Positions 12,047 through 63,689 of a stretch of 64,000 nt of DNA are shown in pieces. Source of the stretch: Afipia sp. (lineage in GTDB: Bacteria; Pseudomonadota; Alphaproteobacteria; Rhizobiales; Xanthobacteraceae); the NCBI GenBank assembly GCA_024707075.1, contig JANQAK010000003.1, positions 1,922,001 through 1,986,000 on the forward strand, written 5' to 3'. A program made the position numbers and the translations under genes. The notes beneath the pieces were generated by a model. It ran no database searches. It had not been told where the DNA came from and saw only the letters and a list, made by a program, of their open reading frames with translations. Position 1 is the first letter of the stretch. The number at the start of each line of letters is the position of its first letter.

Positions 12047-12116
12047 TCAGTCCAGAAGCCCGGTCCTCGTTCCCGACAGGGAAGGAAATGCGGACTCAGA
12101 ATAAGCGGTCTACGCC

Positions 12117-12242
12117 GTCATTGCGAGCGAAGCGAAGCAATCCAGTGGATAGCCCGGGCAAAGGAATGTCTGGATTGCTTCGTCGCGGAACCTGTGCCCG
12201 GACGGCGCAAAGCGCCGATCCGGGTGCTCCTCGCAATGACGG
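12117..12242. repeat. Dispersed palindromic repeat, family 'gtcattgcgag...gaagcaatcca'
   Basis: cgtcattgcgagcgaagcgaagcaatccag ... ctggattgcttcgtcgcgg...ctcctcgcaatgacgg; same family at 25471 and 48368. Confidence 0.8.
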
Positions 12243-24160: not shown

Positions 24161-24326
24161 CTAGTGTCCTGAAATCCGAAGTTCGCATCATTTTGCGGCG
24201 CGCTCCGTAGCGAACTTCGGATTCAAAAGGACACTAGAAAACAATGATTCTAGTGTGGTTTTGGTTCGCAAGTCCACAAATGAACGCGCTGTAGAAATGA
24301 TGCGGACTTGCGAACCGCCACACTAG
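24161..24326. repeat. Composite double-hairpin repeat, copy 1 (hairpin A 24161-24237, spacer, hairpin B 24250-24326)
   Basis: ctagtgtcctgaaatccgaagttcgc...gcgaacttcggattcaaaaggacactag + aaaacaatgatt + ctagtgtggttttggttcgcaagtcc...ggacttgcgaaccgccacactag; inverted copy at 41329. Confidence 0.92.
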
Positions 24327-34047: not shown

Positions 34048-34062
34048 GCCGGCAAGGAAGAA

Positions 34063-34178
34063 CTCATGGTGAGGAGGCGCTCTTGCGCCGTCTCGAACCA
34101 TGAGGCGCGTTGAAAACGTCCCTCTCCCCATCCTCATCCTTCGAGACGCAATGCTGCGCATTGCTCCTCAGGATGAGG
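34063..34178. repeat. Dispersed palindromes, family 'cctcatccttcgagacgc...ctcctcaggatgagg'
   Basis: Two adjacent hairpins; same family at 50854 and 56201. Confidence 0.8.
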
Positions 34179-35649: not shown

Positions 35650-35805
35650 AGGCGAAAATAAAGTGCGAAGCCACGATGGCCGTTGAAGCACTCGATCCCG
35701 GAGCACCTACGAAAGTAGGTGGGCACCATGTGACCGGATCCACGGACCCGGTCAGGGACAGTTCCCTGAAGGATCGATAAGGCCCCGGGGATATATGGCT
35801 TCTGA
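35650..35805 (-). ncRNA. ssrS: 6S RNA (approximate boundaries)
   Basis: Non-coding gap between zapA and fau; minus strand folds with closing stem GAAGCCA/TGGCTTC and internal helices (ccccgggg, ccttcagggaactgtccctgaccgggtccgtggatccggtc, cacctactttcgtaggtg, ctccggg); matches the conserved zapA-ssrS-fau synteny. Confidence 0.75.
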
Positions 35806-35880
35806 CGCGCGACGCAGCCTCGCCAAACCAATGTAGTCACGATCGCAGCGGAGCGCCAGCGGGTGCAGCCGGCAATCGTG

Positions 35881-39977: not shown

Positions 39978-40135
39978 ATCCTCTTGTCCCGGGCGCGATG
40001 TGTCACGCAGTAGCGCATCGCTGACCCGGGACTGTTTCATATTCTGGCGGTCCCGGCTCTACAGCGACCGCCAGCGTGTCGAAGACGCGCGTTACCGCGC
40101 TTACGGCGATGCACCGCGTCCGGGACAGGGAATCG

Positions 40136-41332
40136 ATGACGAAATCTTTTCGCACCCTCGATGATGTTGACGTGAAGGGAAAACGCGTGCTCCTGCGCGT
40201 CGATCTCAACGTGCCGATGGACAACGGCCGCGTCTCCGACACCACACGGCTGGAACGCGTCGCCAAGACCATCGTCGAAATCTCCGACAACGGCGGCAGG
40301 GTGATCCTGCTCTCGCACTTCGGCCGGCCGAAAGGTTTCGACCCGAAGGAATCGCTCAAGCCGGTTGCGATCATGCTGGCCTACCTGTTGCGCCGTCATG
40401 TCGAGTTCGTCGGCGACTGCATCGGCGAGAAGGCGCAGGCGGCCGTCGCCACGATGCAGAATGGCGACATCGTCTGTCTGGAAAATACCCGCTTCCACAA
40501 GGGCGAGGAAAAGAACGATCCGGCCTTCGTCGCCGAACTGGCGAAGCTCGGCGACATCTGGATCAACGATGCGTTCTCCACCGCGCACCGCGCTCACGCC
40601 TCCACCGAAGGCCTCGGCCATGTGCTGCCGGCCTATGCCGGGCGCTCCATGCAGGCCGAACTCGACGCCCTGACCAAGGCGCTGGAAGCCCCGATCCATC
40701 CGGTGATCGCCGTGATCGGCGGCGCAAAAGTTTCCACCAAGCTCGACCTGCTGGAAAATCTCGTCACCAAGGTCGACGCGCTGGTGATCGGCGGCGGCAT
40801 GGCCAACACCTTCCTGCACGCGCAGGGCGTCGACGTCGGCAAATCCCTTTGTGAAAAGGAACTCGCGCCGACCGCGTTGCGGATTCTGGAGAAGGCGGAA
40901 GCGGCGAAATGCGCCGTCATCCTGCCGGTCGACGTGATCGTTGCGAAGGAATTCAAGGCCAACGCCGAGTCCCATGCCTACGGCCTCGATTCGGTGCCGC
41001 CGGACGCCATGATCCTCGACGTCGGGCCGAAGTCGGTCGATCGGGTGCGCGCGGCGTTCGACGATGCCGCCACCGTCGTCTGGAACGGTCCCCTTGGTGC
41101 GTTCGAGATCAAGCCATTCGACCGCGGCACGGTGCAGGCCGCGCGGCACGCCGCCGGACGCACCCGCGACGGCAAGCTAGTGTCCGTCGCCGGCGGCGGC
41201 GATACCGTCGCGGCATTGAACCACGCTGGCGTCGCAGAGGATTTCACTTACGTTTCAACGGCGGGCGGCGCGTTCCTGGAATGGATGGAAGGGAAACCTT
41301 TGCCCGGCGTCGAGGTTCTTAGAATACGCTAG
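40136..41332 (+). CDS. pgk: Phosphoglycerate kinase (stop codon lies inside repeat copy 2)
   Basis: [30 protein letters not shown]...[10 protein letters not shown]...[35 protein letters not shown]. Confidence 0.97.
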
Positions 41333-41491
41333 TGTGGTGGTTTGCAGGTCCGCATCGTTGTTCCGCACGTCTGTAGCGGACCTGCAAACCAAAACCGCAC
41401 TAGCATTTATAGTTTTCTAGTGTCCTTTCAGATCCGAAGTTCGCTAGGAAGATGCTGCAGGGTTAGGCGAACTTCGGATTCGGGACACTAG
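41329..41491. repeat. Composite double-hairpin repeat, copy 2, inverted relative to copy 1 (hairpin B 41329-41403, spacer, hairpin A 41417-41491)
   Basis: ctagtgtggtggtttgcaggtccgc...gcggacctgcaaaccaaaaccgcactag + catttatagtttt + ctagtgtcctttcagatccgaagttcgc...gcgaacttcggattcgggacactag. Confidence 0.92.
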
Positions 41492-48367: not shown

Positions 48368-48449
48368 CGTCATTGCGAGGAGCACTTGCGACGAAGCGAT
48401 CCACCTTTTTATGTCGCTCTGGATTGCTTCGCTTCGCTCGCAATGACGA
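48368..48449. repeat. Dispersed palindromic repeat, family 'gtcattgcgag..gaagc(a/g)atcca'
   Basis: cgtcattgcgaggagcacttgcgacgaagcgatcc...ggattgcttcgcttcgctcgcaatgacg. Confidence 0.82.
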
Positions 48450-51614: not shown

Positions 51615-51730
51615 GCAAAAAAGAGCCGCCGTTTCCGGCGGCTTTTAAAAGTTGATAACAGGGAGGCGTCAAACAGAGTGGACAGGAGCCACTCGGTGTC
51701 CAAACAAGGACAACGCCAGTCATAAACGCT
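51615..51730 (-). ncRNA. Candidate small RNA with strong intrinsic terminator (approximate boundaries)
   Basis: Minus strand: GTCCttgtttGGAC hairpin, GAGTGGctcctgtCCACTC hairpin, unpaired gcctccctg, then gccgccggaaacggcggctcttttttg terminator. Confidence 0.4.
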
Positions 51731-51805
51731 AAGGCTTAATACCGAGTAAATGAATGATTTCCTTTACGGTTCCTTTGCGAATGCGCGGAACCGGCGTTTA
51801 CGATT

Positions 51806-56200: not shown

Positions 56201-56348
56201 CCTCATCCTGAGGAGCGCGCCACGTAGCCAAGTTTACGCGGGCTATGCTTGCTATGGCGCGCGTCTCGAAGGATGAGGATGACCGGGACATCTCTCGACA
56301 TACACCTCATGGTTCGAGACGCGCGAAGACGCGCTCCTCACCATGAGG
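56201..56348. repeat. Dispersed palindromes, family 'cctcatcctgaggagc...gtctcgaaggatgagg'
   Basis: Two hairpins downstream of the EAL gene; the first carries a longer central insert than other copies. Confidence 0.82.
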
Positions 56349-56380
56349 TTTCGATTGCTTGGATGTTAGCCGTCTGGAGT

Positions 56381-63516: not shown

Positions 63517-63689
63517 CGTCGTCCCCGCGAACGCGGGGACCCATAACCGCTCATGAAGAATGGATCGCCGTCATCCTGAGGTGCGAGCCCTTGCGAGCCC
63601 CGAAAGGTGATGCGGTGTCATGAGGTGTCGTGACAATCAACGGTCCCCGTGACGATCAATGGGTCCCCGCGTTCGCGGGGACGACACTG
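63517..63689. repeat. Nested dispersed palindromes: 'gtccccgcg' family flanking a 'cgtcatcctgagg' family member
   Basis: cgtcgtccccgcgaacgcggggaccca ... cgtcatcctgaggtgcgagcccttgcgagccccgaaaggtgatgcgg ... tgggtccccgcgttcgcggggacgac. Confidence 0.75.

Follow-up and report, generated by a model that had tools for sequence, protein, structure and literature searches.

Alphaproteobacteria carry intergenic repeats built of two hairpins, a class recognised decades ago for which, to our knowledge, no mode of moving has been demonstrated. Among these repeats are CIR1-CIR4, the Caulobacter CcrM-associated intergenic repeats (Chen and Shapiro 2003), which according to the summary in PMC2229807 are intergenic, have TA termini and are made of a pair of long inverted repeats with a linker between them; the same review terms their mobility mechanism unascertained. 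RIME (Rhizobium intergenic mosaic elements) and Bru-RS1/2 of Brucella are, by description, mosaic palindromic intergenic repeats of the same order. REPIN/BIME elements with RAYT are inverted hairpin pairs, mobile as one unit, whose singlets are rare and degenerate. MITEs of the IS5/IS427 group, of which IS711 is a member, or of the IS630 group (e.g. RUP of Streptococcus pneumoniae) are small and non-coding, with inverted ends, a YTAR/TA-like target, many copies and one internal hairpin. Palindromic repeats also occur in the bacterial family of our host, namely Br-REP1/Br-REP2 and the GTAG/CGTC REPs of Bradyrhizobium (PMC5082802, PMC3733652).

Here we describe a 166-bp composite from Afipia in which two hairpins, A and B, are joined by a short spacer. 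Comparing by description, we file it as a MITE-like addition to the two-hairpin alphaproteobacterial intergenic repeats, with CIR, RIME and Bru-RS as its nearest counterparts. It has in common with CIR, as the review describes them, an alphaproteobacterial host, intergenic location, two stem-loops with a linker and TA termini, whereas CIR, known here by description, are ~110 bp long and carry GANTC at the terminal loop. In the composite, GANTC is found in 0 of 56 loops; most A hairpins have it in each of their two arms instead. Bru-RS1/2 (103-106 bp) are likewise shorter. The composite resembles REPIN/BIME elements in being an inverted, jointly mobile pair with few lone hairpins, but its hairpins are much longer, CTAG stands at four feet and most congeners have no resident RAYT; the MITEs named above differ in having one internal hairpin in place of two, and the Bradyrhizobium repeats in both sequence and size.

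Architecture of the composite

The window, the whole 64-kb stretch of DNA analysed, holds two A-spacer-B composites, at 24161-24326 on the plus strand and at 41329-41491 on the minus strand. Their parts are listed below, with bit scores to the covariance models of hairpin A (R1) and hairpin B (R2).

24161-24237, plus strand: copy 1, hairpin A, 77 nt, 96 bits to R1; ends CTAGTGTCC...GGACACTAG, inner stem ATCCGAAGTTCGC, A-rich bulge on the inner side
24238-24249, plus strand: copy 1, spacer, 12 nt, A/T-rich, AAAACAATGATT
24250-24326, plus strand: copy 1, hairpin B, 77 nt, 96.8 bits to R2; ends CTAGTGTGG...CCACACTAG, inner stem GGTTCGCAAGTCC
41417-41491, minus strand: copy 2, hairpin A, 75 nt, 85.3 bits to R1
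41404-41416, minus strand: copy 2, spacer, 13 nt, A/T-rich
41329-41403, minus strand: copy 2, hairpin B, 75 nt, 80.1 bits to R2; arms GGTTTGCAGGTCC / GGACCTGCAAACC
41329-41332, plus strand: copy 2, outer CTAG; its TAG, 41330-41332, serves as stop codon to the phosphoglycerate kinase ORF (40076-41332)

Re-reading both copies confirmed the coordinates of the preliminary description, the spacer lengths (12 and 13 nt) and both compensated changes in hairpin B. Single-strand folding of the two copies gave z-scores of -10.1 and -9.7 against dinucleotide shuffles, ~10 standard deviations lower. CTAG is scarce in the window (17 observed in 64 kb versus 57 expected), and 9 of the 17 occurrences lie inside the two composites.

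The same description had taken the two hairpins to be unlike, which proved wrong: the covariance model of A also matches B, on the opposite strand, at ~50-76 bits, indicating that the two hairpins are related, B being inverted and diverged with respect to A, and that the composite is therefore REPIN-like in shape. The loops of A and B have a TTTTGCAGCRC-like motif in common once B is reversed, and the spacer is 85% A+T.

Elsewhere in the window, Rfam matches were obtained to the sRNA BjrC1505 (51616-51758, minus strand) and to 6S RNA (35664-35823, minus strand). Other palindromic repeat families lie at 12116-12145 and 48419-48448 (CGTCATTGCGAG...), at 63518-63685 (GTCGTCCCCGCG...) and at 34052-34105 and 56305-56358 (CTCATGGTGAGGAG...), several kinds of which show insertion polymorphism between congeners.

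Copies in the source genome

Searching the 5.3 Mb genome with R1 and R2, we found 31 A-B composites (16 A+B+ and 15 B-A-), invariably ordered A then B, with spacers of 11-13 nt. At ~22 additional loci, an A-like hairpin is paired with other hairpins in an identical layout. Of the A-like matches outside the 31 composites, 20 of 23, together with two A+/A- pairs, adjoin a second hairpin of different sequence (e.g. CTAGTGGTCC...GGTTCTGACATTCGC or CTAGTGGAATTTTGGATTTGGCATTCGC), and certain hairpin types are found in both positions of the pair. Since nearly every A-like match has a partner hairpin, the unit is the pair; lone hairpins are few and degenerate.

Three composites (L019, L020 and L022) lie in a 2-2.6 kb segment that is present three times in the genome at >99% identity, leaving ~29 independent composites, and flanks are unrelated in 27 of 30 aligned loci. 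With inverted ends CTAGTGTCC/CCACACTAG on a small (166 bp), multi-copy, non-coding unit, the composite has the make-up of a MITE. One composite is divided by ~2.4 kb (L200, C1:511888-514470). We considered this contig 1 A...B pair as an autonomous element and rejected it, as its cargo, named from translations, is an AraC-type regulator and a porin-like gene, which makes it a split composite.

Filled and empty sites

Copy 2 of the window lies in the stop codon of pgk. This pgk-fba site is filled in four genomes (G000, G007, G022 and G027). In at least eight congeners it is empty, with one tetranucleotide kept, and reads GTACGCTAG-ATTT or has CTAA or CTGA. A further genome, G024, has a single A hairpin only at this site, which fits a deletion, consistent with the CTAGTGT direct repeats. 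Synteny over segments of at least 0.4 Mb in four species yielded ~11 additional filled/empty pairs, including one at the groEL stop codon. Across these sites, the empty allele has one tetranucleotide (CTAG, CTAA, TTAA, TTAG, CTGA, CCAG, CTGG, CCGG or CTCG) and the filled allele two, showing that the two-hairpin unit inserts as a whole, with a tetranucleotide at each outer end. The preliminary description had proposed a MITE/REPIN-like mobile unit with maintained folding and had suggested looking for empty sites in relatives; the sites found, along with the further copies, support that proposal. Neither outcome that it had named as a refutation, chance pairing of separate palindromes or a lack of additional copies and empty sites, was observed.

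Most insertions lie in intergenic sequence or at the 3' ends of genes. Insertion into a CTAG that holds a stop codon restores that stop, as in pgk and groEL, and an outer TAG ends the upstream long frame in 7 of the 28 copies tested. We rejected the idea that stop codons are specially targeted, given no frame enrichment over 56 ends. In a Hyphomicrobiaceae bin, a composite is located shortly downstream of groEL (L331, 6749-6915), comparable to the one at the groEL end in the source genome.

Distribution among relatives

All 29 genomes of the genus contain matches, from 3 to at least 150 per genome, but, because a hairpin can match on both strands, true copy numbers are some two to four times lower. 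The genus is Afipia-like: one locus of Afipia sp. RGIG5183 has 90% identity to two of its genomes, and a second locus has 87-91% identity to four. At the family level, matches were obtained in 82 of 150 genomes and in 32 of 47 genera. An exact pattern scan returned at least 116 stretches, mostly from Hyphomicrobiales, with Afipia, Nitrobacter, Bradyrhizobium, Rhodoplanes, Hyphomicrobium and Devosia represented, as well as a few from Phenylobacterium and unclassified bins. The two-hairpin layout also occurs on plasmids of Roseibium, Aminobacter, Rhizobium, Martelella, Ochrobactrum and Agrobacterium, so that layout-level relatives are found on plasmids of Rhizobiaceae and Brucellaceae. The phage records searched gave no match, and viral contigs gave four matching stretches.

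In one genome (G083), at least 11 A hairpins have the same score, a burst indicating recent activity. Adjoining hairpins with a common CTAG, or chains of three hairpins, were observed at L366 4520-4714, L377 1989-2217 and G083:C1:120829-121065, which suggests that units insert into one another's CTAG.

Proposed mode of movement

On balance, the composite is probably a non-autonomous, MITE-like element that is moved in trans by a YTAR-specific transposase and whose arm pairing is kept at the DNA level; both the transposase and the DNA-level step we infer. The mobile unit comprises ~158 bp plus a 4-bp target, built as two 75-78 nt hairpins in inverted relation with an 11-14 nt A/T-rich spacer between them. 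It enters a CTAG (broadly YTAR-like) tetranucleotide as a whole, leaving one tetranucleotide at each outer end, as the filled and empty sites show. The enzyme acting in trans would most likely be a DDE transposase that chooses YTAR/TA targets, like those of the IS5/IS427 group or IS630. The pair may have originated from two single-hairpin MITEs, each with its own CTAG, that became fixed together, their outer ends then serving for movement. Compensating arm changes would most simply result from arm-to-arm correction of an extruded hairpin during replication, with selection on transcripts as a putative secondary contributor to arm complementarity.

Covariation of the hairpin arms

In hairpin A, both-sided changes occur in 11 of 24 pairs (22 cells), compared with 2.5 pairs and 3.8 cells in shuffles; the corresponding values for hairpin B are 10 of 25 pairs (19 cells) against 2.0 pairs and 2.5 cells. 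The covariation of either hairpin was reached by 0 of 500 shuffles, and slid structures also fall short. Orthologous copies at the pgk site in four species are 1-4 compensated pairs apart, with unpaired bases and loops far more diverged, showing that the changes arose in place and not solely between subfamilies.

Arm covariation of this strength could also reflect selection on RNA, with the hairpins used by the host as terminators, mRNA stabilisers or 3'-end RNase sites, a reading favoured as well by the many copies at gene ends, some of which supply the upstream stop. However, one-sided mismatches over 147 hairpins comprise 23 G-T and 32 A-C, counted with transcription orientations mixed, so that G-T(U) is not in excess over A-C and RNA wobble selection is unsupported. 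Both orientations of the composite are used, ORF ends show no frame preference and close relatives have empty sites. No Rfam family was matched at gathering level over the window copies, and among other subfamilies there was one sub-threshold isrG match. Taken together, we regard use of the hairpins as host RNA as rather unlikely.

End tetranucleotides and target choice

The CTAG ends claimed in the preliminary description are present in both window copies, but CTAG is not invariant among copies overall. Ends other than CTAG are mostly matched by the inner arm (CCAG/CTGG, CGAG/CTCG, TTAG/CTAA), and the outer tetranucleotides of a given copy, where they are not CTAG, are often unlike, each usually pairing with its own inner partner. 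At several sites just one outer tetranucleotide equals that of the empty site, and the two outer ones are identical at a subset of sites. The differing outer tetranucleotides would follow from duplication of a YTAR-like target and later change from arm to arm; one target-derived end combined with one element-borne end is a possible alternative.

The feet could also be read as a pairing-based target code that operates without a Y1 enzyme, in which the inner tetranucleotide helps choose the target or is rewritten by it. The unit would then insert beside a tetranucleotide able to pair with the inner CTAG, and subsequent arm-to-arm copying would render inner and outer tetranucleotides complementary. 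We consider such a code unlikely.

Candidate mobilising enzymes

A REPIN proper would consist of two inverted REPs moved as single strands by Y1, the inner tetranucleotide acting as an IS200/IS605-like guide that pairs with the target. The homologous hairpins in an inverted pair with bulge and spacer agree with this, as does the covariation between outer and inner tetranucleotides, and the sites that match the empty site at one outer tetranucleotide only are expected of target-derived plus element-borne ends. Against it, the 75-78 nt hairpins with CTAG at both feet contrast with short, GTAG-footed REPs, and Y1_Tnp (RAYT) was undetected in 26 of 29 congeners, including the copy-rich G006, G007, G019, G022, G027 and G028. 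Y1 was found in 3 of the 29; among copy-rich genomes, these detections amount to a weak match in G001 and, in the source genome, a frameshifted, IS200-like gene that is its only Y1 transposase (C5:178906-179265, L201). We therefore rejected RAYT/TnpA-REP as the mobiliser, leaving the earlier suggestion of a TnpA-REP transposase unsupported, and we judge a REPIN proper to be distinctly improbable. That two palindrome families are paired by chance, or that one ancestral locus was duplicated with its flanks as in the threefold 2-2.6 kb segment, can be dismissed almost entirely given the 31 pairs at 11-13 nt, the unrelated flanks and the filled/empty sites.

For the favoured reading, in which a YTAR-specific transposase moves a MITE-like element in trans, published targets offer two candidate groups. 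IS711 has a YTAR target of which TA is duplicated (PMC2266754), and IS630 prefers CTAG, with TA in CTAG as the target, as cited in PMC2170065. By published target preference alone, the target rule of the composite would fit either the IS5/IS427 group (IS711) or IS630. Of the 29 congeneric genomes, 9 have DDE_3 (IS630-type), which was undetected in the other 20, including the copy-rich G006 and G007; the one IS630 of the source genome that was inspected has no CTAGTG ends. On these two grounds, IS630 was rejected as a resident mobiliser. The search for a transposase with matching ends, as the preliminary description had advised, returned no autonomous element with the composite's ends in 3.9 Mb of sequence. 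Composites lying 1.2-1.5 kb apart in L331, L367 and L377 were considered as transposon ends and rejected, as they enclose host genes, not transposases.

Significance

The composite family offers clean filled and empty sites, a CTAG/YTAR target rule, in-place compensatory change between orthologous copies and at least one recently bursting genome. Together these allow direct tests of which enzyme mobilises the unit and of whether DNA correction or RNA selection causes the arm covariation.
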